64,000 nucleotides of DNA from Gammaproteobacteria bacterium. GTDB lineage: Bacteria > Pseudomonadota > Gammaproteobacteria > Steroidobacterales > Woeseiaceae. The notes below the pieces were generated by a model. That model worked only from the letters and a program-made list of their open reading frames with translations. It made no database searches and had not been told where the DNA came from. Of this stretch, positions 2,387-49,426 are shown one piece after another; within the stretch, counting starts at the first letter, position 1, and each line of letters starts with the position of its first letter. The position numbers and the translations under genes are program-made. The stretch covers positions 1 to 64,000 of the forward strand of contig JAOTYE010000015.1 in NCBI GenBank assembly GCA_029862045.1, in the 5' to 3' direction.

Positions 2387-2404
2387 GGTTGCTCTGACTC
2401 CCGG

Positions 2405-4651
2405 CTATAGATGACTCATGAAAATGACGCTGCGCGGGCACTCTGTCACGCATACGCCGCAACCCTTGCAATACGCATAGTCGAATTCGAGATGGTGACC
2501 CACTCGTTTCAATACGCCTTCCGGACAATACGTGCAGCAAAGGTCACACTCGTTGCAGACACCGCAGGACAGACAGCGAGCAGCCTCGCTTGCGTCTTCG
2601 AGACCCATGTGCACTTCGTCGAAAGTCGAGCGTCGCGCAGCCATGCTGAGTGAATCGCCTTCGGCTGTGGGTTGACGCTCGAACAGATGCAACTTCAATG
2701 CATCGGCACGGATGACCTCGTCACTCCAGACATCGACGTCGCGCAGCGCGTCGGCATGCTCGGAGATACGCACTTGCGCTCCGCTCAGCACGTTGTGAAT
2801 GTGCACGGCCGCGCGCCGGCCACTGCCAATCGCACCGGCCACGGTCCCGTCGCGCGTGGCGAGATCACCGATAGCGAACAATGGTGTCTCCAGCAGGCCG
2901 AGGAGCTGAGAGTTCTCTCTGACCTCTGTGCCGTCCGGAAACACCGACACGTCCGGCGACTGGCCGAGTGCGAGGATGACCCGGTTGCAGGCCAGTTCGA
3001 AATCCGAGCCTGGAATTTCTATCGGTGCACGACGTCCCGACTCGTCCGGCTCGCCGAGTTCCATGCGTCGGCAGGTCAGTCGATAGCGTCGCCGGACGCC
3101 GTCGCCCGGCGCTTCGTGCAAAGCAACGGGTTGGGTGAGCATTTCGATGCAGACGCCTTCCTCTGCTGCCTCGTGGATTTCTTCGCGGATGGCGGGCATC
3201 TCCTGACGGCTGCGCCGGTACACCACGCGTACGCTCCTGGCACCCAGGCGCAACGCCGAGCGGGCAGAATCCATCGCCGTGTTACCGCCACCGATTACGA
3301 CAACGGCCTCGCCATCCACCCGCGCATCTCCCCGATGCACATGATCGAGAAAATCGATGCCCTGGACCACGGCCTCGGTGCCGTCCATGCCCAGTTGCAG
3401 ATCGCGCTGTTCCTGGAGCCCGGTGGCAACAAGCACCGCATCGTGATCACGCGCCAACTCAAGCAGTGCTTGTCGATCAATTTGGTGGTCTGTCTCAACG
3501 GCTACACCTAGACCGAGTATGCGGTCAATCTCACGTGCAACCACGTCCTCGGGCAGTCGAAATTCGGGAATCCCGGATCGGAGCAGTCCGCCGACTTCGG
3601 GTCCGGACTCGACCACTTTGACGCGGTAGCCGAAGCGCGCGAGATGATAAGCGGCCGTCAGGCCGGCGGGTCCCGAGCCGACGATCGCGATTCGTTCGTC
3701 GCGTTCCGCGAGCGGTTCAGTAGTCACCTGGCCATGATCGCCGGCATAGCGCTCCATCTGGCGCACATTGACCGCGCCGTCGACCTCGATGCGGTTACAG
3801 GCCTCCATGCAAGGGGCGGGGCAGGCTCGGCCGCAGATCGACGGGAACGGAGTAGTGCGCAACAGGATCTCCAGCGCTTCGTCGGGTTCGTCGTGAGCCA
3901 GAGCGTTGAGGAATCCCTGCACGTTGTTTCCTGCCGGGCAGATGTGATTGCAGGGTGGAATCATCTGCCGGCGTTGTGGTTGCTCGGTGGCCCATTGGCC
4001 CGTTTTGAGCGCCGGCAGCGACGCGCCGGCACCTTCGAGGATGCTGGGCCCACGTCGTTCGTCCGCCGGTGCCGCTAATCCTCCAGGAGGGCCGACGTCG
4101 TGCGGCGATTCAAGGAGCCGCAGCTCCTCGTAGGCACGGGTAGCGGCAGTCAGGTTCGGACCTTTGAAGCCCAGATGCTCGAGCGCAGCGCACACCTCAT
4201 GGAGCGGAAATGCGAGCATCCGGCCCACCGCCCCGGCGAGCGCAGTATTGACGATAGGTACGCTACGCGTACCCAGGTTGTTGTCGCGGGCAATAGCGGT
4301 CGCATCCACCGTTGCGAGACGGTTACGGGCAAACTGGCTGGCAAATTCCTCTGGCGGCTGCGGCGAGTTGATCAGGAGCCAGCCGCCGGCTTTCAGCCCT
4401 GCTACGATCGCTGCTCCGACCAGGGTCGGATCCAGCACGATAACGTGGTCCGGCTCGTAGATCAGATTGCGATTGCTGATGGGTTCTTCGGAGTAGCGGC
4501 AGAATGCCTGGATTGGCGCGCCTGAGCGCTCGGCCGCATACAGGCCGAACGCCTGTACCGACAGACCTTGCAGAAATCGCGATGTGGCGATCAGCTTCGC
4601 CAGGGTCACACCACCCTGGCCGCCACGGCCATGTATTCGGATCTCAATCAT
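2405..4651 (-). CDS. Fusion: OFOR gamma subunit + GltD-like FAD/NAD(P)H oxidoreductase + ferredoxin
   Basis: 748 aa with three modules. Residues 1-182 are a PorG-type gamma subunit (IHGRGGQGGVTLAKL). After a linker, residues 228-620 match the NADPH-dependent glutamate synthase small-subunit family: Fe-S cysteines C234, C238, C273, C277, C281 and C285, an FAD dinucleotide site (IVGSGPAGLTAAYHLA, from 323), an NAD(P)H site (VVIGGGNTAMDSA, from 451) and the closing FAD motif LFAIGDLAT. Residues 690-748 are a ferredoxin with two clusters (C693-C709 and C728-C738). The arrangement suggests that electrons from the 2-oxoacid pass through the ferredoxin clusters and FAD to NAD(P)+, or in reverse. Phenylglyoxylate:NAD+ oxidoreductase uses comparable parts as separate subunits. 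No frameshift is visible, so this looks like a true fusion. Confidence 0.88.
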   Translation of the reverse strand: MIEIRIHGRGGQGGVTLAKLIATSRFLQGLSVQAFGLYAAERSGAPIQAFCRYSEEPISNRNLIYEPDHVIVLDPTLVGAAIVAGLKAGGWLLINSPQPPEEFASQFARNRLATVDATAIARDNNLGTRSVPIVNTALAGAVGRMLAFPLHEVCAALEHLGFKGPNLTAATRAYEELRLLESPHDVGPPGGLAAPADERRGPSILEGAGASLPALKTGQWATEQPQRRQMIPPCNHICPAGNNVQGFLNALAHDEPDEALEILLRTTPFPSICGRACPAPCMEACNRIEVDGAVNVRQMERYAGDHGQVTTEPLAERDERIAIVGSGPAGLTAAYHLARFGYRVKVVESGPEVGGLLRSGIPEFRLPEDVVAREIDRILGLGVAVETDHQIDRQALLELARDHDAVLVATGLQEQRDLQLGMDGTEAVVQGIDFLDHVHRGDARVDGEAVVVIGGGNTAMDSARSALRLGARSVRVVYRRSRQEMPAIREEIHEAAEEGVCIEMLTQPVALHEAPGDGVRRRYRLTCRRMELGEPDESGRRAPIEIPGSDFELACNRVILALGQSPDVSVFPDGTEVRENSQLLGLLETPLFAIGDLATRDGTVAGAIGSGRRAAVHIHNVLSGAQVRISEHADALRDVDVWSDEVIRADALKLHLFERQPTAEGDSLSMAARRSTFDEVHMGLEDASEAARCLSCGVCNECDLCCTYCPEGVLKRVGHHLEFDYAYCKGCGVCVTECPRSVIFMSHL

Positions 4652-4786
4652 TGCACCGTTCCGCGGGCGACTTTCTCACCGCGGTTACTCCAATGAATGC
4701 TCGCACAAGGAGTGCTTAATCAGCTCTGAATATACAGTTTCCCGGCGGTTACCCGAATAAGTAGATTCCGTCCGGAGCCGGTGATG

Positions 4787-4816
4787 AAAAGGGCGCCCTG
4801 ACTGATGGCCGGGCGC
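4787..4816 (-). terminator. Possible intrinsic terminator of ygfZ
   Basis: GCGCCC (4793-4798) and GGGCGC (4811-4816) can pair around a 12-nt loop. Read on the minus strand the stem is followed by CCTTTTC, a short T-run. It sits just after the ygfZ stop. The stem is short and the loop long, so support is moderate. Confidence 0.4.
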
Positions 4817-4828
4817 GCGTTCATCCAG

Positions 4829-5566
4829 TTAGTGTAAATACGGCAACGGCACGTGTTGCAGCGCGACGCCATTGACCGTCAAACCCGCTGCGGCTTTGTC
4901 GATCGGGACAATGGCGAGAATGTCGTCGCCGATCGCATTAAGCACTTCACCGACATCGCGTTCGCCAGCCGAGACTTTGTCACCTGGTGCGACGGGGCTG
5001 GCGCTTTCAAATCGGTGCAAGCGGCGCTTCGTCGCACCCCGAAAATGGGTGCGGGATACGATCTCCTGTCCCGGGTAGCAGCCCTTGTCGACGCTGACCG
5101 CATCGAGCAGATCGAGGTTCAGCATGTGCGGCGTGAATTGCTCGGATTGAGGCTGCAGAATCTCCGGAATACCGGCGCACAGATTGTCGAGCCGCCATTC
5201 GTCATACGTGCTTTTCATATCGAGCTGCTCTGCCGTCGCCACTTCGATCGCAAACCCGACCTTGGCCCGAAAGCGAAACATCGTCAGCCGCTTCACGACC
5301 TCGTCGGCCAGCTCAGTTGGCAATGTCAGCGAAAGGCCTCCTTCAATGCCGGTTACTCGAAACAGGCAAATCACCCGGCCTTTCGGGTTGCACCAAGCTG
5401 AAAGGATCGGTTCAGTTGATCCTACGCGATCTTGTTGATCAGGGTGACGGCGGGAAAGTTGGGTATTGCCGCCGAACCGGCTTAGGTCAGCCGCCAGTTG
5501 CGCCTGTAGAAAGTCGAACGCATCGTCGCCGATGACGTTGATCGTTGAGTACGGTAGGTCTGACAT
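4829..5566 (-). CDS. ygfZ: Folate-binding Fe-S cluster maintenance protein YgfZ
   Basis: 245 aa, GcvT-like fold. The diagnostic motif KGCYPGQEIVSR is present at about residue 160, including the conserved cysteine required for YgfZ function in E. coli, followed by TKRRLHRF. The family supports repair or assembly of [4Fe-4S] proteins using tetrahydrofolate. It is shorter than E. coli YgfZ, and has an unusual polar stretch (about residues 33-50, GNTQLSRRHPDQQDRVG) near the N-terminus. It diverges from the sdh operon across a 78-bp gap, a sensible location since SdhB is an iron-sulfur protein. The start ATG is the first in frame. Confidence 0.87.
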   Translation of the reverse strand: MSDLPYSTINVIGDDAFDFLQAQLAADLSRFGGNTQLSRRHPDQQDRVGSTEPILSAWCNPKGRVICLFRVTGIEGGLSLTLPTELADEVVKRLTMFRFRAKVGFAIEVATAEQLDMKSTYDEWRLDNLCAGIPEILQPQSEQFTPHMLNLDLLDAVSVDKGCYPGQEIVSRTHFRGATKRRLHRFESASPVAPGDKVSAGERDVGEVLNAIGDDILAIVPIDKAAAGLTVNGVALQHVPLPYLH

Positions 5567-5644
5567 CTTGTTGGAATTCTATCCTGTTACGCTCAGGTAC
5601 ATGTCGCTCATGCAGGTCCATGCCGTGTCTGGCATACTGCCGCC

Positions 5645-5830
5645 ATGCCAACAGACGACGCAGACAATAAGGCCGCTTCGGGCGATACCAGGCCGGTGAC
5701 GGCGACGCGTGACGCCGACACTAACAAGCAGGAAAACGCCGCGCCACCAACGGAGATTGGTGGTCGAAAGGGCCCGGATCCGACGCGCTACGGCGATTGG
5801 GAGAAAGCCGGTCGTTGCATCGATTTCTAG
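5645..5830 (+). CDS. DUF1674 / SDHAF4-type succinate dehydrogenase assembly factor
   Basis: 61 aa. The C-terminal half carries the family signature GGRKGPDPTRYGDWEKAGRC followed by IDF at the end, as in mitochondrial and alphaproteobacterial SDHAF4 proteins, which chaperone flavinylated SdhA before it joins SdhB. The N-terminal half is polar and low in complexity. It lies 29 bp upstream of sdhC and reads in the same direction, so it is the first gene of the sdh operon. This context supports the function well. The ATG at 5645 is the only in-frame start. Confidence 0.85.
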   Translation: MPTDDADNKAASGDTRPVTATRDADTNKQENAAPPTEIGGRKGPDPTRYGDWEKAGRCIDF

Positions 5831-5859
5831 GTATATAAGTATTGAAATAACAAAAACTT

Positions 5860-6237
5860 ATGAGCAATACTGAAAGACCTTTATCACCTCATTTATCGAT
5901 CTATCGCTGGCCGATTACGATGACATTGTCGATCCTGCACCGGGCGACCGGTGTGGCGATGTCGATTGGCTTGATCGTATTGGCGGCGTGGCTCGCGAAT
6001 GCGGCAGCGGGACCTGAGGCATACGATCGGTTTGCGGCAATGATGGCGACGCCGATCGGACGCGTCGTGTTGATCGGCTGGAGCTTCTCGTTCTCTTACC
6101 ACCTGGCAAACGGCATTCGTCATCTCGTCTGGGACACCGGACGTGGATTTGAGAAGCGTCAGGCAAATGCCTCCGCCTGGTTCGTATTGATCGTGGCGAT
6201 TGTCGTGACAGGCGCATTCTGGATGGTCCTGGCATGA
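5860..6237 (+). CDS. sdhC: Succinate dehydrogenase cytochrome b556 subunit
   Basis: 125 aa, three predicted membrane helices. N-terminal RPLSPHLSIYRW and the conserved SILHRATG quinone-site segment are present. The motif YHLANGIRHLVWD (H81, H88) contains the candidate axial heme b ligand. It anchors the SdhAB catalytic dimer to the inner membrane and helps to reduce ubiquinone. The ATG follows an AT-rich 29-bp spacer after the SDHAF4 gene. The 3' end overlaps sdhD by 4 bp (ATGA). Confidence 0.93.
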   Translation: MSNTERPLSPHLSIYRWPITMTLSILHRATGVAMSIGLIVLAAWLANAAAGPEAYDRFAAMMATPIGRVVLIGWSFSFSYHLANGIRHLVWDTGRGFEKRQANASAWFVLIVAIVVTGAFWMVLA

Positions 6238-6614
6238 GCCTCCGGGCGCCGCTCGGTCGGGTACTCGGCCTTGGGACTGCGAAGGATGGCACGGACCACT
6301 GGTGGGGGCAGCGCATATCGGCCGTAGCTCTGGTATTGCTCGGACTGTGGTTTGCGGTATCGCTGGTCGTTCTTCCCAGCCTGGAACATCACATTGCAGT
6401 TGAGTTTATCGGTACACCGCTTAACAGTGTGCTGCTGTCGTTGCTGTGCGTGACGACGGCTTATCATTCCTATCTGGGTGTGCAGGTCGTTGTCGAAGAT
6501 TACGTACACGCTGCGGGACTCAGGATCACGTCCCTGATCCTGTCGCGCTTTGCCCATGTGTTCGTGGCAGTCGTGTCGGTATATGCCATTTTGAAGATCG
6601 GTCTGGCCGCATGA
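6234..6614 (+). CDS. sdhD: Succinate dehydrogenase membrane anchor subunit
   Basis: 126 aa, three predicted helices. [12 protein letters not shown] near residue 23 and [16 protein letters not shown] near residue 77 match the SdhD family; the histidine of YHSYLG is the candidate second heme ligand and the DY following it is part of the quinone site. It overlaps sdhC and sdhA by 4 bp each, which indicates tight translational coupling. Confidence 0.92.
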
Positions 6615-8395
6615 GCGACTACGAATTCATCGATCACAGCTACGACGTCGTGGTTATCGGTGCCGGTGGCGCCGGTCTCCGCGCCACGTTTGGCCTGGCG
6701 CAGGCCGGTTTCAAAACGGCCTGCGTAAGCAAAGTATTCCCGACTCGTAGTCATACGGTCGCGGCGCAGGGTGGCATCAGTGCCGCACTGGGCAACATGG
6801 GCGAGGACGACTGGCGCTGGCACATGTACGACACAGTCAAGGGCTCCGACTGGCTCGGCGACCAGGACGCGATCGAGTATATGTGCAAGGAAGCGCCCGA
6901 CGCTGTTATCGAACTCGAGCATTATGGCGTGCCGTTTTCGCGTACTGAAGAGGGCAAGATTTATCAGCGCCCCTTCGGCGGCATGACCACTCGGTTCGGC
7001 AAGGGTACGGCGCAACGAACCTGCGCGGCGGCCGATCGAACCGGACATGCGATGTTGCACACTTTGTACCAGCAGTCGCTGAAACACGATGCCGAGTTCT
7101 ATATCGAATACTTCGCGGTGGACCTGATCATGGAGGATGGCGCCTGCCGCGGCATTGTCGCGGTCGACCTCGCTACCGGGCGCTTGCATCGTTTCCGCTC
7201 GCAGCAGGTCATTCTCGCCACGGGCGGCTACGGCCGGGCCTATTTCTCCTGCACGTCGGCGCATACGTGTACAGGCGATGGCAGCGCTATGGTGCTGCGC
7301 GCCGGATTGCCGGTACAGGACATGGAGTTCGTGCAGTTCCACCCGACCGGTATCTATGGTGCGGGAATGCTGATTACCGAAGGCGTACGTGGCGAGGGCG
7401 GCTACCTGACGAACTCGGATGGCGAGCGTTTTATGGAACGCTATGCGCCCAATGCGAAGGACCTCGCGTCACGTGATGTCGTTAGCCGGTCAATGACCGT
7501 TGAGATTCGTGAAGGCCGTGGAGTCGGTGGCGAACAGGATCACATTCACCTGCATCTCGAACACCTGGGTCCGGATGTCATTGAAGAACGCCTGCCAGGC
7601 ATTGCCGAGTCGGCGAGGATCTTTGCCGGTGTCGATGTTACGAAGGAACCCATTCCGGTATTGCCAACTGTGCACTACAACATGGGCGGCGTGCCGGCGA
7701 ACTTCAACGGCCAGGTCATCACGAGCAAGGACGGTGATCCCGAGTCAGTCGTACCGGGCCTGATGGCCGTTGGCGAAGCCGCATGCGTATCAGTGCACGG
7801 TGCCAACAGACTTGGCTCGAATTCCTTGCTCGATCTGGTGGTCTTTGGCCGCGCAGCAGCACATTTCTGTGCTGCAACGATGACACCGGGCGCACGGCAT
7901 AAGGCGCTCGCGGCTGAGGCAGGACAGGACAGCGTTGAACGCATTGACAGGCTGCGCAATGCGAATGGCAGTCGACCGACGGCCGAGATTCGACTCGAAA
8001 TGCAGAAGATCATGCAGAGTCACGCTGCGGTCTTCCGCACAGGCGAGACTCTTCAGGAGGGCGCCGATCTCCTCAAGAAAACATTTGCGACCTTAAGCGA
8101 CATCAAAGTCACGGATCGGTCGCTGATCTGGAACACTGATCTCGTTGAGACGATGGAACTCGAGAATCTGATGCTCAATGCAACCGCAACGATACAATCA
8201 GCTGCGAACCGTCTCGAGAGCCGCGGCGCACACGCTCGCGAAGACTACGCAGAACGCGACGATGAGAACTGGATGAAGCATACGCTGGCCTGGGTAGACG
8301 ATAACGGTCAGGTCGAATTCAGGTACAGGCCGGTTCATCAGGAAACGCTGACGGACGAGGTCGACCCGATCCCGCCGAAGACTCGGGTTTACTAG
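6611..8395 (+). CDS. sdhA: Succinate dehydrogenase flavoprotein subunit
   Basis: 594 aa. FAD dinucleotide fold [13 protein letters not shown] (residues 13-25), [10 protein letters not shown] with H48 as the expected covalent FAD site, and the catalytic-domain block [18 protein letters not shown] are all present. It oxidises succinate to fumarate in the TCA cycle and respiratory chain. The start is the ATG overlapping the sdhD stop; a longer upstream reading frame lies inside sdhD and is not used. It is followed by an unusual 49-bp tandem repeat before sdhB. Confidence 0.95.
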
Positions 8396-8401
8396 GTTAG
8401 T

Positions 8402-8548
8402 GGTCGCAATGAACCAATTCCACCCCAGGTTTGGATCTGCTAGAGGTACCTGTCGCAGTGAATCAATTCCACCGCAAGTCAGAGTCTGTTAGGGGTACCT
8501 GTCGCAATGAATCAATTCCACCGCAAGTCAGAGTCTGCTAGGGGTACG
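8402..8548 (+). repeat. Three tandem 49-bp repeats between sdhA and sdhB
   Basis: Units are 8402-8450, 8451-8499 and 8500-8548. Units 2 and 3 differ at 3 of 49 positions; unit 1 differs from unit 2 at about 11. Each unit carries an SD-like run (AGAGG or AGGGG) followed by GTACC/GTACG, and a potential start codon (ATG, GTG, ATG) in the context TGAATCAATTCCACCGCAAG. The last AGGGG (8540-8544) is placed to serve as the sdhB ribosome-binding site. The unit also resembles the sdhB 5' end (TGAATTCAGACTTCCACCG), which suggests degenerate duplication of that start region. Confidence 0.85.
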
Positions 8549-8552
8549 TGAG

Positions 8553-9335
8553 TTGGCTGAATTCAGACTTCCACCGAACTCCAGAATAAAGAAGGGCAAG
8601 CACTTCGATGCGTCGCATGGTGCAGCGAATGTGCGCCGCTTCGCCGTGTACCGTTACGATCCGGACAGTGGCGAGAATCCGCGTGTCGATACCTACGAGG
8701 TCGATCTCGATAGTTGCGGCACGATGGTTCTGGACGCGCTGATCAAGATCAAGAACGAGGTCGATCCGACGCTGACGTTTCGTCGCTCGTGCCGCGAAGG
8801 AATCTGCGGTTCGTGCGCAATGAACATCGACGGTGGCAATACGCTGGCCTGTACGCGCTCGATCGACAGCGTCAAGGGTGTTGTCAAAATCTATCCGTTG
8901 CCGCACATGCCGGTCGTCAAAGATCTTGTGCCTGACCTGACAAATTTTTACGCGCAGTACGCGTCGATCAAACCATGGTTGCAGACCCGCACGCCGCCAC
9001 CGCCGGATCAGGAGCGTCTGCAAAGCAAAGAAGACCAGGAACTGATCAACGAACCTGCCGCGTGCATCCTGTGCGCTTGCTGTTCGACGAGTTGTCCGAG
9101 CTACTGGTGGAACAGCGATCGTTATTTGGGCCCGGCCGCGTTGCTCGCCGCGTATCGCTGGCTCGTGGACAGCCGTGATGAGGCAACCGGAGAGCGCCTG
9201 GATGAACTTGAGGATCCGTTCCGCTTATACCGCTGTCACACGATCATGAATTGCACACAAACCTGCCCGAAAGATCTGAACCCAGCCCAGGCGATCGCCG
9301 AGACCAAGAAGATGTTGGCCGAACGCCGTTATTAA
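8553..9335 (+). CDS. sdhB: Succinate dehydrogenase iron-sulfur subunit
   Basis: 260 aa. Three clusters are visible: [16 protein letters not shown] plus a later cysteine ([2Fe-2S]), [12 protein letters not shown] ([4Fe-4S]) and [17 protein letters not shown] ([3Fe-4S]). It relays electrons from SdhA to the quinone site. The start is a TTG; the encoded [18 protein letters not shown] matches the normal N-terminus of gammaproteobacterial SdhB, and AGGGG from the last repeat unit lies 8 nt upstream. No in-frame ATG gives a full-length protein. The 157-bp gap from sdhA is unusual in this otherwise compact operon. Confidence 0.93.
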
Positions 9336-9339
9336 CGGC

Positions 9340-9408
9340 ATGCAGTCCTCCAAACTCAGGTGGCAATGCCGGTCACACTGGCAAACATATGCAACAGTCC
9401 AGACTTAA
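9340..9408 (+). other. Possible 22-codon leader ORF made from a duplicated sdhE start
   Basis: Starts 4 bp after the sdhB stop, reads MQSSKLRWQCRS then diverges, and stops at TAA 9406-9408, 17 bp inside sdhE. No clear Shine-Dalgarno precedes either this ATG or the sdhE ATG, so ribosomes may pass from sdhB to the leader and then to sdhE by coupling. It could equally be a non-functional relic of duplication. Confidence 0.35.
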
Positions 9409-9437
9409 GTGGCAATGCAGACGAGGCATGCGTGAGC
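9340..9437 (+). repeat. sdhE: 49-bp direct duplication of the sdhE start region
   Basis: 9340-9388 and 9389-9437 align without gaps; over the first 30 bases 23 are identical, and the identity fades afterwards. Both copies begin with ATG and encode nearly the same peptide, MQSSKLRWQCR in copy 1 and MQQSRLKWQCR in copy 2. Copy 2 is the real sdhE start. Because 49 is not a multiple of three, copy 1 is out of frame with sdhE. Confidence 0.8.
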
Positions 9438-9625
9438 TTGACGAGCTATTGCTCGCTTATCTCGAGCATCGCTACACAGACGCGCCCGCAGCGGATAAGA
9501 AGGCATTCTGCTCGCTTTTGCAGCTTTCCGATCCGGAACTCATGGGTTACCTGTTGCAAAGGGAGCAGCCAGCAGCCGAACTAGCCCGTGTCATCGCACA
9601 CATACTCGACCGAACTCAGACCTGA
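9389..9625 (+). CDS. sdhE: Succinate dehydrogenase flavinylation factor SdhE (SDHAF2 family)
   Basis: 78 aa. The family signature RRGMRELDELL (residues 11-21) includes the RGxxE motif needed for covalent FAD attachment to SdhA, followed by a helical domain (LLQLSDPELMGYLL). The size matches the family. The start is copy 2 of the duplicated segment; a longer in-frame extension overlaps sdhB and is not supported. The 3' end overlaps the YgfX-like gene by 38 bp, the common sdhE-ygfX pairing. Confidence 0.9.
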   Translation: MQQSRLKWQCRRGMRELDELLLAYLEHRYTDAPAADKKAFCSLLQLSDPELMGYLLQREQPAAELARVIAHILDRTQT

Positions 9626-10028
9626 GCCCCTGCTGCGCTGCGTTGTCATCATTGCCGGAGTGGCGGCGACCGTGCTCGGTGTCACGATGATTCTGGCTTT
9701 GTCGGTTCCTATCGCCTGGCGTGCCGCCGCCGCGGTCGTCTGGCTGCTCATGAATACCCGCGAACTGCTCGTAATTACCAACGGGTATAAGCGATGTCAG
9801 CGCATACGCATGGAACACGATGGCGAGCTTGCAGTCCTGGCGCCGGATGGTTGTTGGATTGGGGCAACACTTCTTGCGGGTAGCGTCGTCTTGTCCAGAT
9901 TTGCATGGCTCCGATTCGAGTCCGATGATGGGCAACGATTTGCCGAGTTGATGCGCGAAAAAAGGCAAAAAAACAAGGACTGGCGCCGCCTGCAGGTGAT
10001 CTGGCGGCACTTGGGAGCAGGGGGGTGA
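9588..10028 (+). CDS. YgfX/CptA-like membrane protein
   Basis: 146 aa. Two hydrophobic helices (about residues 18-58) are followed by a cytoplasmic tail with LLVITNGYKRCQRIRM and a C-terminal basic stretch (REKRQKNKDWRR). Size, topology and position overlapping sdhE match the YgfX family (named CptA in E. coli, where it was reported as a toxin affecting MreB/FtsZ, with sdhE once proposed as its partner). Sequence conservation is low, so the assignment rests heavily on context. GTG start. No strong terminator is seen before rpoE. Confidence 0.7.
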   Translation: MSSHTYSTELRPEPLLRCVVIIAGVAATVLGVTMILALSVPIAWRAAAAVVWLLMNTRELLVITNGYKRCQRIRMEHDGELAVLAPDGCWIGATLLAGSVVLSRFAWLRFESDDGQRFAELMREKRQKNKDWRRLQVIWRHLGAGG

Positions 10029-10093
10029 AGCTGCTAACATGCCCCGGCCGCGAACTGAGTCACATTATGCGCATGATAAGGGTTGTTTTTCGA

Positions 10094-10119
10094 GAACTTT
10101 CAATGGCCGGGCCGGTCTA
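10094..10119 (+). promoter_or_regulatory. Sigma-E (RpoE/AlgU) type promoter of rpoE
   Basis: GAACTT (10094-10099) and GTCTA (10115-10119) are separated by 15 nt, matching the sigma-E consensus (GAACTT, 15-17 nt, GTCTAA / TCTGA). It lies about 50 nt upstream of the rpoE ATG, as expected for autoregulation of an rpoE-rse operon. Confidence 0.75.
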
Positions 10120-10166
10120 TCCGGGTGTCGAGCCGTTGCGTCTCACAAACACTGGGACACAACCGC

Positions 10167-10742
10167 ATGTCGAATGAATCGACAGACAAGGAACTGGTCA
10201 AGCGGGTGCAGAAGGGCGATAAGGGCGCGTTTGATCTATTGGTGCTCAAATACGAGCAGAAGATCGTCAATCTGGTAATGCGATATGTGCGTGACCCGGA
10301 GCAGGCGCTGGACATCAGCCAGGAGGCCTTCATCAAGGCGTACCGGGCGCTGCCACGTTTTCGCGGCGACAGTGCGTTTTACACCTGGCTTTACCGGATC
10401 GCTGTGAATACCGCAAAGAATTACCTTGCGGCACAGCGTCGGCGGCCGATGGACATTGAGCTCGACTTGCAGGACCCGGAACAGTATGGGTTGCATGCCA
10501 AGCTGAAGGAGACGGATACCCCGGAAGGAGTAACGCTCAGTCACGAATTACAGGAAACACTGGAACGTGCCATCGAAGCACTGCCAGATGATCTAAGAAC
10601 GGCGATTATCTTGCGTGAGTTGGATGGTATGAGTTATGAAGAGATTGCGCAGACGATGGATTGTCCCGTTGGTACCGTGCGATCGAGGATTTTCAGGGCC
10701 CGCGACGCGATTGGCAAAAAAGTCGGGACTCTGGTGCGATAA
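10167..10742 (+). CDS. rpoE: RNA polymerase sigma-E factor
   Basis: 191 aa ECF sigma factor. Region 2 reads DISQEAFIKAYRALPRFRGDSAFYTW-like sequence in two blocks (QALDISQEAFIKAYR; FYTWLYRIAVNTAKNYL), and region 4 has LPDDLRTAIILRELDGMSYEEI with VGTVRSRIFRARD. It closely resembles AlgU/RpoE, which directs the envelope-stress response. The ATG at 10167 gives the standard N-terminus (ELVKRVQKGDKGAFDLLV); an earlier in-frame start would lie over the sigma-E promoter. The anti-sigma gene follows 14 bp later. Confidence 0.94.
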   Translation: MSNESTDKELVKRVQKGDKGAFDLLVLKYEQKIVNLVMRYVRDPEQALDISQEAFIKAYRALPRFRGDSAFYTWLYRIAVNTAKNYLAAQRRRPMDIELDLQDPEQYGLHAKLKETDTPEGVTLSHELQETLERAIEALPDDLRTAIILRELDGMSYEEIAQTMDCPVGTVRSRIFRARDAIGKKVGTLVR

Positions 10743-10756
10743 ATGGGCGGGGACCT

Positions 10757-11374
10757 ATGAACGATGCAATAAAAACTCAAATTTCGGCATTCGTCGACGG
10801 TGAATTGCCGCAGAACGAAGCTGAGCTACTGTTGCGCAGACTGTGTCAGGACCGGGAACTCCGGCAGCAGGCTGCCGAATACCTGGCAATGGGCCGGGTT
10901 ATGCGCGGCGAACGCCGTGTTGCCGGTATGGACAGGCTGCGCGAGCGCATATCGGCGGTTCTCGATGACAAATCACTGCAGGAAGAGTTTGCAGTTGCCG
11001 AGTCGGGCGCGCCGCGGTATTTGCGGCCAGTGGCGGGCGCCGCCATTGCTGCCACCGTTGCGCTGGCCGCGGTTATTGGTTTGCAGCAGATGTATGCCGT
11101 ACCCGACGTAGATCCGGTGCCGGGTAATGAGACGATCGCTGCATCCGTCGACGGCAGCGCCTACACGGTGCCCGTTCAGGACGATGATCAGCTGCGCGAT
11201 TATTATTTACGCCACAGCGCAACGTCGTCCTATTTCGGCGCAAACAGCATTAATGCACGGCTTGTCACGCTGCAGCTTAGAGAGGGCGTGATCATCGATG
11301 CCGAAGATTCAGAAGCGCCTGTTGATGAGGATGAGGCCGCATCGACCGACACCGTAGACGCACAAACGCCGTAA
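10757..11374 (+). CDS. rseA: Sigma-E anti-sigma factor RseA (MucA family)
   Basis: 205 aa. The cytoplasmic N-terminal domain (ISAFVDGELPQNEAELLLRRL) matches the RseA sigma-binding domain. One membrane helix (about residues 93-112, VAGAAIAATVALAAVIGL) is followed by a periplasmic tail that ends in an acidic stretch. RseA holds sigma-E at the membrane until it is cleaved by DegS/AlgW and RseP. The start ATG follows GGGGACC; a longer frame that begins inside rpoE is rejected. Confidence 0.88.
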   Translation: MNDAIKTQISAFVDGELPQNEAELLLRRLCQDRELRQQAAEYLAMGRVMRGERRVAGMDRLRERISAVLDDKSLQEEFAVAESGAPRYLRPVAGAAIAATVALAAVIGLQQMYAVPDVDPVPGNETIAASVDGSAYTVPVQDDDQLRDYYLRHSATSSYFGANSINARLVTLQLREGVIIDAEDSEAPVDEDEAASTDTVDAQTP

Positions 11375-11379
11375 TCACG

Positions 11380-12354
11380 ATGACCACGCGACGACGACAT
11401 CTGACCGCAACTGCCTGTGTTGCGCTTGGCAGCCTGTTTGTGGGCGTTCCTGACGCATCAGCTCAGGACGTCGGGCCGCGCGACTGGCTCAACAAGATGG
11501 CAAGCGCCGTACAGTCAACGAATTACGAGGGCACCGTGATTCGCCTCCAGAACGGCAAGGTCGAGGCGCTCAAAGTTGCGCATATGAACTCGGACGGCGT
11601 CATTCGCGAGAAGGTGCTTGTTCAGGAAGGCAACGGTCTGGAAATCATCCGCAATGGCAACGAAGTGCAATGCATCTTGCCGGATAAGAAATCTGTACTC
11701 GTCGAAGAATGGAATGATCAAAGCACGTTGTTTTCGACACTTCCTTCGAGCGATATTCGCTTTGGCAGTGAGTACGATGTATCCATCGTGCGCCAGGAGC
11801 GGGTTGCCGGCCGCAAGGCCATAATGTTGGCGATACGGCCGCATGATGATTACCGTTACGGTCATCGTATCTGGCTCGATATTGCCACCGGCTTTCCACT
11901 CCAGACCAAACTGATCGGTGATAATGGCGAGGCTATCGAACAGGTAAAATTCGCGGACATCAGCATTGACAAGGAAATTCATGCCAGCGCGCTGGCGCCG
12001 TCAATCAGCACCGAGAATTTCCGCTGGATCACGCAGCCACGGCGTTCGATCGTACTTGCTGTTGACAGTGTCTGGGGCGCCGCCAATTTGCCAAAAGGCT
12101 TTCGTGTCGTATCTACCCATGAAGAAGAATTGCCCAGCAGGGAAGCGTCGGTCACGCACATTCTGTATAGCGACGGGCTCGCTAATGTGTCAGTGTTCAT
12201 CGAGCCAGCAAGCGGCAATAAGATCGCGCGTCGTTCACGTGTCGGCGCATCAAATTCCTACAGCATCGAGATTGGCGGCTATCAGATAACCGCCGTTGGT
12301 GAGGTGCCGGCCGCGACGTTGGAGCAGATCGCGACCTCCATGAATCCCAACTAG
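11380..12354 (+). CDS. rseB: Sigma-E regulatory protein RseB/MucB
   Basis: 324 aa. N-terminal signal peptide (to about VPDASAQ), then the MucB/RseB N-terminal lipid-sensing domain (WLNKMASAVQSTNYEGTVIR) and C-terminal domain (GFRVVSTHEEELP). It is a periplasmic protein that shields RseA from DegS cleavage. It begins 5 bp after rseA, and the next gene, rseC, follows 7 bp after its stop. Confidence 0.9.
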   Translation: MTTRRRHLTATACVALGSLFVGVPDASAQDVGPRDWLNKMASAVQSTNYEGTVIRLQNGKVEALKVAHMNSDGVIREKVLVQEGNGLEIIRNGNEVQCILPDKKSVLVEEWNDQSTLFSTLPSSDIRFGSEYDVSIVRQERVAGRKAIMLAIRPHDDYRYGHRIWLDIATGFPLQTKLIGDNGEAIEQVKFADISIDKEIHASALAPSISTENFRWITQPRRSIVLAVDSVWGAANLPKGFRVVSTHEEELPSREASVTHILYSDGLANVSVFIEPASGNKIARRSRVGASNSYSIEIGGYQITAVGEVPAATLEQIATSMNPN

Positions 12355-45181: not shown

Positions 45182-45475
45182 ATGAATTCGGCCGATAGCG
45201 TCGCGCGAAAACCGATGGACCTTGCCCAGGCCGATGTGCCTCGGGGTGAGGTGCATATCGTCGCCGAGCGCTGCAAGGAATGCAGCTACTGCATCGTCTA
45301 TTGCCCGGAAGACGTGCTGGTTTACACCGAGGAGACCAATGCGAAGGGTTATCACTATCCAATGATCGCAGAGGGCAAGGCCGAGGCGTGTGTGCTGTGC
45401 AAGTTCTGCGATCTGATCTGTCCCGAACTGGCCATTCATACCACCGACGCCAGCGACGAAGCACAGGGGAGCTAG
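45182..45475 (+). CDS. korD: 2-oxoglutarate:ferredoxin oxidoreductase, ferredoxin subunit
   Basis: 97 aa. Two [4Fe-4S] motifs: C31, C34, C37, C41 (CKECSYCIVYC) and C70, C73, C76, C80 (CVLCKFCDLIC). First gene of a five-gene operon, 3 bp from korA. The ATG at 45182 follows an upstream GAGG. It should relay electrons from KorAB. Confidence 0.88.
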   Translation: MNSADSVARKPMDLAQADVPRGEVHIVAERCKECSYCIVYCPEDVLVYTEETNAKGYHYPMIAEGKAEACVLCKFCDLICPELAIHTTDASDEAQGS

Positions 45476-45478
45476 GCG

Positions 45479-46663
45479 ATGCCGCCGGAAACAGCAGCAA
45501 AGACAGTCGCACCAGAGGCGGCGCAACGTGTTTTAACGGGCAGGCGATTCATGTTGGGCGATCATGCCTGCGCCGAAGGTGCCCTGGCTGCCGGCCTCGA
45601 TTTCTTCGCCGGCTACCCCATTACGCCATCGACGGAAGTCGCGGAACACCTCGCGAGCAGGCTACCGGCGGTTGGCGGCCGATTTGTGCAGATGGAAGAC
45701 GAGTTGGGCAGCATCGCCGCCATTATCGGTGCTTCTGCCGCGGGCGCGCGAAGCTTCACGGCGACCTCCGGTCCTGGCTTCAGCCTGATGATGGAGAACA
45801 TCGGTCTGGCAGCGATGATGGAAATCCCGTGTGTGATCGTCAACGTACAGCGCGCGTCCCCGTCCACGGGCTTGCCAACCATGGTGGGGCAGTCCGATAT
45901 CCTGCAGGCTCGCTGGGGCTCGCACGGCGACTACGGCATCGTCGCCTACTGCCCTTCGTCACCGCAGGAATGTTTCGACCAGACAATAGATGCTTTCAAT
46001 ACGGCTGACCGCTACAGGATCCCGGTCTTTATCCTGATGGATGAGGTCGTCGGACATATGGCCGAGCGAGTGGAAATCCCCGCGGCGAACGAGATTCCCC
46101 ATGTGCCGCGCAAACGACCGCGGACGAAACCCGAAGAGGGGATCTTCCTGTCTTACGCGCCAGATGAAGACCTGGTACCGCCGATCGCACACGCGGGTGA
46201 GGGCTACAAGGTCCATATGACCGGACTCACGCACGACGAACGCGGTTATCCTGAACTGACGCCGGAAACACACGACAAGCTGGTAAACAGGCTCGTGGAC
46301 AAGGTCCGTCTCAACGCACTGGATATCGTGGATTTCGACGAACAGCATGTCGACGATGCGGAATGCGTCGTCATTGCATACGGCTGTACGGCGCGGTCGG
46401 CCAGCGCGGCTGTCGATCAGGCACGGGCCGAGGGTTTACGCTGCGGTTTGCTGCGGCCAAAAACGATCTGGCCGTTTCCCGAAGAACGCGTGCGGCGACT
46501 CCTGGAGATCGGCAAAATAAAGAGATTCATCGTCCCGGAGATCAACCTCGGCCAGCTGCGGCGCGAAGTCGAACGCCTGACGCAGCTGCCAACAATAGGT
46601 CTGAATCACGCCGGTGGCGCGATGCCTACTCCCAACGCGATACTGGAGATAATCAGGTCATGA
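45479..46663 (+). CDS. korA: 2-oxoglutarate:ferredoxin oxidoreductase, alpha subunit
   Basis: 394 aa. AGYPITPSTEVAEHLA (pyrimidine-binding), VQMEDELGSIAAIIGAS, and ATSGPGFSLMMENIGLA are closely matched to KorA-type alpha chains, as is the LPTMVGQSDILQARWG stretch. It converts 2-oxoglutarate and CoA to succinyl-CoA with reduced ferredoxin, or runs in reverse. Branched-chain 2-oxoacids are an alternative substrate. Only distantly like PorA at 1193-2386. Overlaps korB by 4 bp. Confidence 0.87.
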   Translation: MPPETAAKTVAPEAAQRVLTGRRFMLGDHACAEGALAAGLDFFAGYPITPSTEVAEHLASRLPAVGGRFVQMEDELGSIAAIIGASAAGARSFTATSGPGFSLMMENIGLAAMMEIPCVIVNVQRASPSTGLPTMVGQSDILQARWGSHGDYGIVAYCPSSPQECFDQTIDAFNTADRYRIPVFILMDEVVGHMAERVEIPAANEIPHVPRKRPRTKPEEGIFLSYAPDEDLVPPIAHAGEGYKVHMTGLTHDERGYPELTPETHDKLVNRLVDKVRLNALDIVDFDEQHVDDAECVVIAYGCTARSASAAVDQARAEGLRCGLLRPKTIWPFPEERVRRLLEIGKIKRFIVPEINLGQLRREVERLTQLPTIGLNHAGGAMPTPNAILEIIRS

Positions 46664-47484
46664 GCACACCCCAACAAGACGATTTCGCCGTCGTACATCC
46701 GTTCGATCACCTGATGCGCGCCGACCGTCTACCTCATATCCTGTGCGGCGGATGTGGCATCGGCACGGTAATTCACGGCTACGTGCGTGCGGTCAGTGAA
46801 TCCGGCGTCGATCCGGACCGGCATGTTTGCGTGTCCGGCATTGGCTGCAGCGGGCGGGCGGCCGGCTATGTCAATGTCGACTCGTATCACTCGACGCACG
46901 GTCGCGCGCTACCCTTCGCACTGGGCATCGCGGTCCACAATCCCGAATTGAAAGTCACGGTTATCAGTGGCGATGGCGACCTCATGGCGATAGGCGGCAA
47001 TCATTTCATTCACGCCGCGCGGCGCAACGTCAATCTGAATGTCATCTGCATCAACAATTTCAACTACGGTATGACCGGCGGACAAGTGGGACCCACCACG
47101 CCGATCGGTGCGAAGGGAACAACTGCACCGCAAGGAAGTATCGAGCATCCGTTCAACCTGCCGTATCTGGCGAAAGCCTGCGGAGCCTCGTTAGTTGCGC
47201 GCTGGACGATCCTGCATGTCCGCCAGTTCACGGATGCGGTATTGCGGTCGATGGACAAGGATGGGTTCTGTTTCACGGAAGTCCTCTCGCCGTGTCCCAC
47301 CAGCTTCGGGCGGCGCAATAAACTGGGCGAGGGACTCGATGAGGTCGAAATGTACCGCGAGCGCTGTCACATCGAGAACGGCGCCCAGAATCTCGAAGAG
47401 CTGGATATCGATATCGTCGATCACGAGCAGCCGATCACGGTGGGCAATTTCGTCGATATTGAACGCTCGGCTTTTCATGCATGA
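46660..47484 (+). CDS. korB: 2-oxoglutarate:ferredoxin oxidoreductase, beta subunit
   Basis: 274 aa. Cluster cysteines C29/C32 (LCGGCG) and C63 (GIGCSGR), TPP motif GDGDLMAIGGNHF (from 104), and NNFNYGMTGGQVGPTTP typical of KorB. The ATG at 46660 overlaps the korA stop (ATGA); the longer frame inside korA is rejected. Confidence 0.88.
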   Translation: MSTPQQDDFAVVHPFDHLMRADRLPHILCGGCGIGTVIHGYVRAVSESGVDPDRHVCVSGIGCSGRAAGYVNVDSYHSTHGRALPFALGIAVHNPELKVTVISGDGDLMAIGGNHFIHAARRNVNLNVICINNFNYGMTGGQVGPTTPIGAKGTTAPQGSIEHPFNLPYLAKACGASLVARWTILHVRQFTDAVLRSMDKDGFCFTEVLSPCPTSFGRRNKLGEGLDEVEMYRERCHIENGAQNLEELDIDIVDHEQPITVGNFVDIERSAFHA

Positions 47485-47493
47485 TCAACAGCG

Positions 47494-48051
47494 ATGCCTA
47501 AAGCGATGAATGACAGTATCGAAATTCGCCTGGGCGGCGTGGGTGGACAGGGTATCGCGCTGGCTGGCACCCTGTTGGGTAATGCGGCCGCGCTGTACGA
47601 CGATAAGGAAGCCGTATTCACGCAGACCTATGGCCCGGAAGCGCGTGGTGGCGCATCCCGGGCGGACATCATTATCAGCGATAACCCGATCGCCTATCCG
47701 TTTGTTACACGCCCGCATGTTGTGGCCGTTCTGTTTCAGGAGGCATACGAGAAGTTTGGGCAAGAGCTTGCGCCGGGTGGGCTGTTGATCGTCGAAAACG
47801 ATCTCGTCAACGCGCGCACAGACGATGCCGACGTGGTCAGGCTCCCTGCCGTAAAGATCGCAGAGGAGCTTGGCAATAAATTAGCCGCTAATATCGTCGT
47901 GCTCGGATATCTGATCGGCGCCACCAACGCGGTCAGCTTGCATGCGATGGAGGAAGCCATTCGCGCGACAGTCAACGCACGCCATCTGGACCTCGACATG
48001 CAGGCGCTCAATGCCGGTTTCACGCTGGCCGTCGAGGCCGGCAATGACTGA
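47494..48051 (+). CDS. korC: 2-oxoglutarate:ferredoxin oxidoreductase, gamma subunit
   Basis: 185 aa. Pyruvate/ketoisovalerate oxidoreductase catalytic domain: LGGVGGQGIALAGTLLG, TQTYGPEARGGASRADIIISD and NIVVLGYLIGATNAV. It completes the four-subunit enzyme. The 3' end overlaps the next gene by 8 bp, which ties the HdrA-like protein to the complex. Confidence 0.88.
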   Translation: MPKAMNDSIEIRLGGVGGQGIALAGTLLGNAAALYDDKEAVFTQTYGPEARGGASRADIIISDNPIAYPFVTRPHVVAVLFQEAYEKFGQELAPGGLLIVENDLVNARTDDADVVRLPAVKIAEELGNKLAANIVVLGYLIGATNAVSLHAMEEAIRATVNARHLDLDMQALNAGFTLAVEAGND

Positions 48052-49426
48052 CTCTATCCTTATCGTCGGTGGCGGCGTTGCAGGCCTTACAGCGGCAATT
48101 GCATGTGCCGAGGCGGGAGTGCGTGCCATCGTCGTCGAGCATGACGCCATCGTGGGCGGCAGGCTGGCCGCGGCGATGACGCAAAAATCCTCGGTCGGCG
48201 ACAGCATTGACGGCGTCCCGATACCGAAACTCGACGCCTTGGCCAAAATGAGCAACATCGAGATTTTCACGTTGGCCAATTTAGAAGAGATCCAGGGCGG
48301 ACCAGGCAATTTCGATATCTCCATACGCGAGCGTGCTCGATTCGTCACCGAGGACTGTACGCTCTGCAATCACTGCCGCCCCGTGTGTCCCGTCGTGCGC
48401 TCCAACGAACACGACGCTGGCCTGAGTTATCGCAAGGCAATCTACGCGCCGTTCCCGGAGACGATGCCGCCGGAGTTCGTCATCGATATTGATGCCTGTC
48501 TCAATACGCCCCCCAACTATTTGCCGTGCAATCGATGTACCGAGGTGTGTGACGACGATGCCATTCATTTTGACGTGCCGCTGGAGCGCCTGCACCAACG
48601 AAAGGTCGGCGCAGTTGTTCTTGCAGCAGGGTTTGAAACTGCGACCGACAGCGGCGCCAGCCATCGCGGCTATGGTGAATACCCCGATGTTGTGACGACA
48701 GCGGAAATGGAACGGCTGCTCACGGCGCCCGGGCCGACCGGCGGTTTCGCCGCCAGGCCTTCCGACGAAGAATATGCGAATAGCATCCTTTTCATACTCG
48801 ATGAACTGACGCCGTTTGCGGTACACATTGTGGCCAGCCAGATTGGTCGGCTGATCGCGCAGGATGTCACCAAGATTGCGCTGCTGGTGACGAATCAGCC
48901 CGGCAACGGCGAACAAGGCAGTTTGCTACAGGGATTTCCCGAGGGCCTGACGGTTAACTACGGATTGCTGCAGAAAGTCGAAGCCAGGGCAGACAACAAG
49001 ATCACGGTGACCTATGCGGACTTTTCCAGTAGCCGGATACCGGAGGAGCAATACGACCTGGTGGTATTGAATTCGATTGTCAGTCCGGCATCGGGGCTCG
49101 ACGGGCTCGCGCAGGTGATCGGTTGCGAGCTCGCCGATAATGGCTACGTCTCCAGGCCGGACTCCGATAACTCCTGCGCAACGAGCCGTCCAGGTATTTA
49201 CGCAGCAGGCGGCGCCGCTGGAGCGACGATCCTCGGCACAGCCGTAGCGGAGGCAGAGGTAGCAGCATCGGCCGCACTGGCGCACCTCGACCCGCGATTG
49301 CTGGGTGATGGGCATGCGGCCGCAGGGGACAGTGAGGCGGGCCTGGAGGCGGCGGTTGCATCGCAAGAAGAACTTCGTGCCCGGATCGAGCGTGCCTTGT
49401 TTGCGATGCTCGAGAGCGGCGAGTGA
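48044..49426 (+). CDS. HdrA-like FAD/iron-sulfur electron-transfer protein
   Basis: 460 aa. FAD site ILIVGGGVAGLTAAIACAEAG (5-24 core) with VVEHDAIVGGRLA, then two cluster motifs: C105, C108, C111, C115 (CTLCNHCRPVC) and C152, C162, C165, C169. The block SYRKAIYAPFPETMPPEFVI and DDDAIHF is the signature core of heterodisulfide reductase subunit A. The methanogen N-terminal insertion and C-terminal ferredoxin domain are missing. A C-terminal Gly/Ala segment (YAAGGAAGATILGTAVAEAE) closes the FAD fold. Being encoded in overlap with korC, it probably accepts or delivers electrons for KorABCD. Bifurcation is speculative. Confidence 0.85.
   Translation: MTDSILIVGGGVAGLTAAIACAEAGVRAIVVEHDAIVGGRLAAAMTQKSSVGDSIDGVPIPKLDALAKMSNIEIFTLANLEEIQGGPGNFDISIRERARFVTEDCTLCNHCRPVCPVVRSNEHDAGLSYRKAIYAPFPETMPPEFVIDIDACLNTPPNYLPCNRCTEVCDDDAIHFDVPLERLHQRKVGAVVLAAGFETATDSGASHRGYGEYPDVVTTAEMERLLTAPGPTGGFAARPSDEEYANSILFILDELTPFAVHIVASQIGRLIAQDVTKIALLVTNQPGNGEQGSLLQGFPEGLTVNYGLLQKVEARADNKITVTYADFSSSRIPEEQYDLVVLNSIVSPASGLDGLAQVIGCELADNGYVSRPDSDNSCATSRPGIYAAGGAAGATILGTAVAEAEVAASAALAHLDPRLLGDGHAAAGDSEAGLEAAVASQEELRARIERALFAMLESGE

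Follow-up and report, generated by a model that had tools for sequence, protein, structure and literature searches.

The KorDABC operon and its HdrA-like gene

The window analysed here is the whole of a 64,000-nucleotide stretch, positions 1 to 64,000 of the forward strand of contig JAOTYE010000015.1, from a Gammaproteobacteria bacterium of the family Woeseiaceae (assembly GCA_029862045.1). Within positions 45182-49426 it carries five open reading frames (ORFs) on the + strand, which encode KorD, KorA, KorB and KorC, the subunits of a 2-oxoacid oxidoreductase, and then a 460-aa protein similar to HdrA. This last protein comprises the FAD (flavin adenine dinucleotide) domain and the inserted ferredoxin domain of HdrA and is hereafter named the HdrA core. 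The core was found in 12 genomes, in each of which it directly follows korC.

The existence of such a five-gene operon had been proposed from the sequence alone (the original prediction) and was borne out by the ORFs and by matches in Pfam and PDB. All four KorABCD subunit types are found together. KorD (45182..45475, +, 97 aa) is the dicluster [4Fe-4S] ferredoxin or delta subunit, with a Pfam Fer4_7 domain and OGOR_delta as its best NCBIfam model, below cut-off. The alpha subunit KorA (45479..46663, +, 394 aa) contains POR_N and PFOR_II, is similar to PDB entries 1yd7, 8ys5 and 6n2n, and passes only the general 2-oxoacid:acceptor oxidoreductase model PRK08659.1 (540 bits; cut-off 411). KorB (46660..47484, +, 274 aa), the thiamine-diphosphate beta subunit, contains TPP_enzyme_C, and KorC (47506..48051, +, 181 aa, with an alternative start at 47494) is the gamma subunit, recognised by Pfam POR and, below cut-off, by NCBIfam PRK08537.1. 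There is a 4-nt overlap between the korA stop and the korB ATG. The gene of the HdrA core (48044..49426, +, 460 aa) begins with the ATG at 48044 and overlaps korC, whose stop codon is at 48049-48051, by 8 nt; an overlap of the two genes had been predicted.

The substrate of KorDABC is likely to be 2-oxoglutarate. The 2-oxoglutarate-specific NCBIfam models rank best for the beta and delta subunits and second for alpha, although all three score below their cut-offs (alpha 369.5 bits against 579, beta 230 against 364, delta 56 against 125). The predicted 2-oxoglutarate type is suggested by the ranking of the families and not by their thresholds.

Features kept in the HdrA core

The core matches the NCBIfam models HdrA2 and HdrA only partially, the former with 237 bits against a curated cut-off of 1100, residues 3-251 aligning with positions 140-381 of the 777 of the model. 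Pfam finds an FAD domain, while the Fer4 models match below their cut-offs. Solved HdrA chains are nevertheless matched by the sequence of the core (5odc, E 5.8e-52), and with an AlphaFold2 model made without templates (pLDDT 83.3, pTM 0.81) Foldseek retrieved HdrA chains first (TMq 0.74-0.77, with 8rwn and 5odc at 0.77), followed by sHdrA of entry 6tjr (0.59). Sequence and fold together predict a thioredoxin-reductase-like domain that binds FAD.

The FAD motif and the two four-cysteine motifs described originally are real and invariant in all 12 cores. The Rossmann motif GxGxxG occupies residues 9-14 (48068..48085, +), with G9, G11 and G14 conserved throughout. In the inserted ferredoxin domain the first motif, C105-x2-C108-x2-C111-x3-C115, lies at 48356..48388 (+) and the second, C152-x9-C162-x2-C165-x3-C169, at 48497..48550 (+); no core has lost any of these eight cluster ligands, a loss that the original prediction had named as a possible refutation. 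The spacing that opens the second motif is C-x9-C in the core, compared with C-x7-C in full-length HdrA proteins adjacent to KorC and C-x2-C in 5odc. It encloses the loop CLNxPPNYLPC (48497-48529), which is invariant except for one position across the 12 cores, though the protein is otherwise divergent.

Features lost from the HdrA core

HdrA is described as a four-domain protein with assigned electron routes: electrons enter from MvhD at the C-terminal ferredoxin domain, reach HdrBC through the cluster of the thioredoxin-reductase domain and ferredoxin through the inserted ferredoxin domain, and the N-terminal cluster uses Cys197 from the partner subunit (PMC9012536, available in part). Lys409, which sits at the N5 of FAD in 5ODC/5ODQ (PMC6405883, PMC10734219), is called conserved among HdrA homologues in the available text of PMC6405883.

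Most of these elements are absent from all 12 cores. The first ~140 residues, which hold the N-terminal cluster domain, are gone, the profile alignment (hhalign) beginning at HdrA residue 142, and the region of Cys197 contains no cysteine. The cluster pattern of the thioredoxin-reductase domain, CxGSxD...CSxxCC, was found in none of the 12 cores, whereas the CSxxCC cluster and the lysine are kept in 38 of 38 HdrA and QmoA-like rows (36 distinct). The corresponding site (48794..48847, +) is 11 residues shorter than in full-length HdrA and has, by MAFFT and hhalign, no Cys and, at the position of the lysine, no Lys or Arg in any of the 12 rows. Lys409 was matched to the motif by counting along the 5odc and 8rvv alignments. 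As an aid in placing it we also used Cys386, Cys399, Cys403 and Cys404, which we take to be the HdrA residues of this region. It aligns with core residue 265 by MAFFT (Ser in 11 cores, Asn in one) and with residue 266 by hhalign (Gln in ten, including that of the window, His in one and Leu in one); residues 264-267 include neither Lys nor Arg in any core. The C-terminal ferredoxin domain is also absent, with no cysteine after residue 412 in 11 cores and a single one in locus L098.

Neither the window nor L057 (C36:60000-79999) contains a match to the CCG-type pattern of HdrB. Across the 12 operon loci the pattern matched only a 101-residue low-complexity frame in L046, and it recovered HdrB in all three positive-control loci (L059, L070, L080). 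The predicted lack of HdrB and HdrC therefore holds for HdrB in the visible neighbourhood, a genome-wide search for HdrB/HdrC not having been made.

The core had been called truncated. It is indeed shorter than HdrA, but this is a specific conserved architecture and not gene decay. Its proposed role as a flavin bifurcation centre fared worse, since the loss of the N5 lysine and of every iron-sulfur (Fe-S) arm except the inserted domain in 12 of 12 cores argues against bifurcation.

Distribution of the core and of its Kor operon

The genome searches covered relatives of the window's genome and its order, class and phylum, and say nothing on other phyla; they scored only part of the first-look candidates (for the genome of the window, in one search, 4 out of 45), which makes their absences soft. 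A scan of genome contigs with peptide patterns from the window's core, which finds close relatives only, gave four loci in metagenome-assembled genomes (MAGs) with cores of 38-70% identity. With an alignment of these MAG cores, 11 of 396 genomes of the order were positive at E <= 1e-60, among them the window and three of the four MAGs, which brings the total to 12 distinct genomes.

In every one of these genomes the core follows KorC, and with the start codons chosen the two ORFs overlap by 1 to 8 nt. The gene order D-A-B-C is kept in 11, and the contig of the twelfth, L093, ends inside korB. In L098 (genome G891) korA appears as two overlapping frames (737-1884), a frameshift or an assembly error. 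When the order was searched with KorB, scores of 534-599 bits were obtained in exactly the 11 core-bearing genomes, so that the association of Kor with the HdrA core, as originally noticed, is both specific and conserved. The next KorB-like matches (228-238 bits) came from four genomes, whose Kor genes share 29-52% identity with those of the window; no core was seen in their 3.6 kb loci, three of which reach only ~0.8 kb past KorC.

In the class sample KorB matched 7 of 274 genomes. Besides the window, genomes G154 and G270 carry a full-length HdrA after korC; G172 has no HdrA match within 12 kb around Kor, and no HdrA was seen in the short loci of G251, G303 and G158, whose KorB scores are lower. 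The phylum search returned 6 of 398 genomes, namely the window's core and five QmoA-like proteins. A set of 24 genomes of the same genus gave no core and two QmoA-like matches, while four same-genus genomes in the order search do have it, which indicates a patchy presence. A plasmid search gave one record, from Ilyobacter, carrying an HdrABC cluster.

Selection and phylogeny

Compared with its nearest relative, in L043, the core is under purifying selection: its ratio of nonsynonymous to synonymous substitutions (dN/dS) is 0.203/1.554 = 0.13, from which we conclude that the protein is maintained by selection. The same ratio is ~0.05 for KorA and ~0.04 for KorB. A chance grouping or a broken gene was rejected on the basis of this value and of the 12 conserved junctions. 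A tree of 49 rows places the 12 cores in a single clade (support 100/100) on a long branch, apart from HdrA (3 rows) and from the QmoA-like proteins (34 rows); the tree is unrooted, and the sister of the core clade is unsettled since long branches meet there.

The Rnf neighbourhood

The flanks of the 12 loci were compared using ORFs of at least 90 aa at E 1e-12, with antisense shadow ORFs set aside. Apart from Kor genes, more than two loci had in common only rnfB and a PFOR-like gene, which measures ~1650 aa where it is complete. Five of the 12 loci have rnfB next to the operon, in one of two arrangements. It is collinear and downstream in L044, with one small opposite ORF between, and in L046, where its ORF overlaps the stop codon of the core by 4 nt; it is divergent and upstream in L095 and L097, and likewise in L098, there at the contig edge. 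All five rnfB products contain the RnfB-type FeS domain by Pfam, and wherever the sequence continues, as it does in four of these loci, rnfB is followed by the PFOR-like gene. In our judgement, two such arrangements in distant members are unlikely to be due to chance. The recurrence of this neighbour suggests a ferredoxin/Rnf economy in Gammaproteobacteria which possess 2-oxoglutarate dehydrogenase as well.

In the genome of the window, Pfam signatures of RnfB, RnfC and RnfD surround the PFOR-like gene on contig C4. There (L053, C4:34000-46000) a 1650-aa PFOR-like fusion lies between rnfB and rnfC/rnfD (3308-11514), which is an unusual placement for a keto-acid oxidoreductase.

Metabolic setting of the host genomes

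Physiology markers were sought in five genomes, that of the window and those of L043-L046. Both the 2-oxoglutarate dehydrogenase E1 component and RnfC, the latter over its cut-off, are present in all five. RuBisCO gave no match in four of them and matches over cut-off only in G315 (best 82 bits). ATP-citrate lyase was matched in none of the five, while the positive control G270 matches on its Kor contig; the sensitivity of this search rests on G270 alone, 14 control genomes all being silent. The original prediction had offered two uses for the enzyme, an unusual electron outlet for 2-oxoglutarate oxidation or a drive for its reductive synthesis; this gene content leans towards an oxidation that feeds the ferredoxin/Rnf pool, though the reverse direction could still occur.

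Five POR_N loci were found in the window's 3.5 Mb genome, among which L055 and L056 (contigs C29 and C9) hold two more two-gene oxidoreductases of the KorAB type. The window itself has a second 2-oxoacid oxidoreductase on the - strand (270-4651). It consists of beta, alpha and gamma subunits, and the gamma subunit, of 748 aa, is a fusion with an NAD(P)-binding flavoprotein of the GltD/PRK12771 type that carries a ferredoxin at its C-terminus; the genes beside the oxidoreductase read as a putative succinate dehydrogenase (6446-9335). Pyr_redox_2 is intact in this fusion (2-288 of 291), in contrast to the HdrA core, where it matches only over 2-58. Direct reduction of NAD(P)+ by the core was considered, and with this partial match no nucleotide site is recognised.

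The same genome encodes aprB-aprA followed by two HdrA2-like genes (L054, C33:62000-78000, at 5832-11722). NCBIfam supports aprA and aprB, whereas the neighbouring proteins are HdrA2-like below the cut-off; the names QmoA and QmoB, as well as sHdr, are labels that we presume to be appropriate. These genes suggest a dissimilatory sulfur metabolism.

A possible electron route

We hypothesize that KorDABC, probably a 2-oxoglutarate:ferredoxin oxidoreductase, has in the core a dedicated adapter of FAD and 2[4Fe-4S] that does not bifurcate electrons, works with the ferredoxin/Rnf pool and serves a single acceptor; we give this reading about an even chance. Electrons from keto-acid oxidation would pass from TPP (thiamine diphosphate) to the [4Fe-4S] cluster of KorB and the two of KorD, then to the inserted ferredoxin domain of the core and to FAD, which would gather single electrons and hand them to one acceptor, perhaps RnfB and the ferredoxin pool or a two-electron acceptor. 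In this model the cofactors are presumed to be loaded and the five proteins to form a physical complex, with direction and acceptor as just outlined. The polyferredoxins MvhB and FmdF dock on the inserted ferredoxin-like domain in HdrA structures, according to the available text of PMC12350162, and this may be a precedent for the docking of KorD at the same place.

Several observations weigh against such an adapter. In the part of PMC9012536 available, electrons in HdrA are described as travelling from FAD to the inserted ferredoxin domain by way of the cluster of the N-terminal domain. The core lacks that domain, so that electrical continuity between the two is unproven, although the conserved CLNxPPNYLPC loop might compensate. 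No nucleotide-binding motif that would serve a two-electron acceptor is recognised. Moreover the core has diverged more rapidly than the Kor subunits, seven of the 12 loci have no Rnf neighbour (although in L093 and L094 the upstream flank is not visible), and the genome of the window has its own rnfB-PFOR-rnfC-rnfD cluster on another contig (L053).

The original suggestion, that the FAD couples Kor to partners of high and low potential in a bifurcating or confurcating enzyme, is favoured by the fact that HdrA is a bifurcating subunit in solved complexes, and the Kor-adjacent HdrA of tubeworm symbionts has been proposed to belong to an electron-bifurcating complex that supplies Kor (PMC6315080, in the text available). 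Against it, all 12 cores lack the FAD-N5 lysine as well as the Fe-S arms that lead to HdrBC and come from MvhD, and no HdrB-like gene was found in the visible neighbourhood. Bifurcation is improbable in a protein that has only one Fe-S arm and lacks Lys409, and we regard this explanation as very unlikely. A core that is a separate ferredoxin-dependent flavoprotein merely sharing the operon, such as a small-disulfide reductase or an oxygen guard, would explain why it is only 70% identical to its L043 counterpart, against 89% for KorA and 93% for KorB, and why its dN/dS exceeds theirs, and its thioredoxin-reductase-like fold would fit other substrates. The strict KorC-core junction and the co-occurrence with one Kor type speak against this, as does the fact that outside the cluster motifs no CxxC is invariant in the 12 rows, and we find it unlikely.

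The operon could instead work reductively, with a membrane-potential-driven Rnf and the HdrA core feeding low-potential electrons to KorDABC for the carboxylation of succinyl-CoA to 2-oxoglutarate, either in anaplerosis or in a reverse oxidative tricarboxylic acid (TCA) cycle independent of ATP-citrate lyase. A 2-oxoglutarate dehydrogenase in all five genomes makes an oxidative Kor partly redundant, rnfB lies beside five of the operons and RnfC is in all five genomes, and the gammaproteobacterial four-subunit Kor described in the available part of PMC6315080 lies in reverse-TCA clusters. The results for ATP-citrate lyase and RuBisCO given above count against this direction, and a core without a second Fe-S arm would presumably be unable to lift electrons by bifurcation; we judge it rather unlikely. 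The adapter reading has a more far-reaching form, to which we also give a rather low probability, in which the operon represents a class of five-subunit 2-oxoglutarate oxidoreductases whose minimal HdrA core is a dedicated wire from Kor to the Rnf-PFOR membrane system. If this is true, free ferredoxin would be bypassed, and respiring bacteria could use keto-acid chemistry to power an ion pump or for CO2 fixation.

Comparison with known systems

Kor genes beside HdrA have been described before. In the reverse-TCA clusters of tubeworm symbionts and Thioflavicoccus, korABCD is interspersed with flxABCD-hdrABC, and a complex of Kor with HdrABC and Flx has been proposed (PMC6315080, PMC11636981, both available in part). 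The loci of G154 and G270, which we take to be of this kind, resemble that of the window in having a four-subunit Kor beside HdrA, with HdrA directly after korC (L059, L060), and their Kor subunits are 43-54% identical to those of the window by BLASTP. However, their HdrA proteins have 650 aa and all domains, whereas that of the window is reduced. G154 also has HdrB- and HdrC-like genes beside Kor, and G270 an MvhD-like gene and an ATP-citrate lyase on the Kor contig, while for the window type neither HdrB-like genes nearby nor ATP-citrate lyase (five genomes) were found. For these two reasons a reverse-TCA cluster of the published type was rejected.

The HdrA of methanogens (5odc, 8rvu, 7bkb) shares with the core the FAD and inserted ferredoxin domains, in both sequence and fold. 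The short QmoA-like HdrA proteins of Gammaproteobacteria, one of which lies beside aprBA on contig C33 of the window's genome, resemble the core in length (~420-515 aa by ORF) and in the lack of the N-terminal cluster domain, and the one in the window's genome, with 368 bits, is also below the HdrA2 cut-off of 1100. QmoA-like proteins nevertheless keep the cluster of the thioredoxin-reductase domain and the lysine, which the core does not, and have lost the cysteines of the inserted domain in 13 of 15 aligned rows (L007 and L012 keep them), being a mirror image of the core. An identity with QmoA was rejected on account of the separate clade, the opposite cluster loss and the absence of the tandem with a longer HdrA2-like gene by aprBA. 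The sHdrA of Hyphomicrobium denitrificans (6tjr) is likewise a reduced proteobacterial HdrA-like subunit, matched in sequence and in fold (TMq 0.59), but it has 349 aa and the match is weaker; it is presumably part of a sulfur-oxidising sHdr complex and not of a keto-acid oxidoreductase.

HdrA paralogues with missing domains have been described in anaerobic methanotrophic archaea (ANME; PMC9012536, available in part). The open-licence literature searched, as far as its texts were available, yielded no report of KorDABC joined in one operon to a reduced HdrA core. The accessible portions of PMC12542636 and PMC10804542, both of which name HdrA and korABCD, describe no such operon, and the same holds for those of PMC12533140, PMC9723716, PMC7894505 and PMC4914600. 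Within that literature, what is new here is a reduced HdrA without a nearby HdrB, in genomes without an ATP-citrate-lyase match (0 of 5). HdrA is generally treated as a centre of bifurcation; the present lineage has kept its flavin domain and one ferredoxin arm and tied them to one enzyme, and may thus offer a natural minimal module for what the flavin of HdrA does without its bifurcating environment. When an environmental genome has HdrA next to Kor, this does not necessarily mean electron bifurcation.

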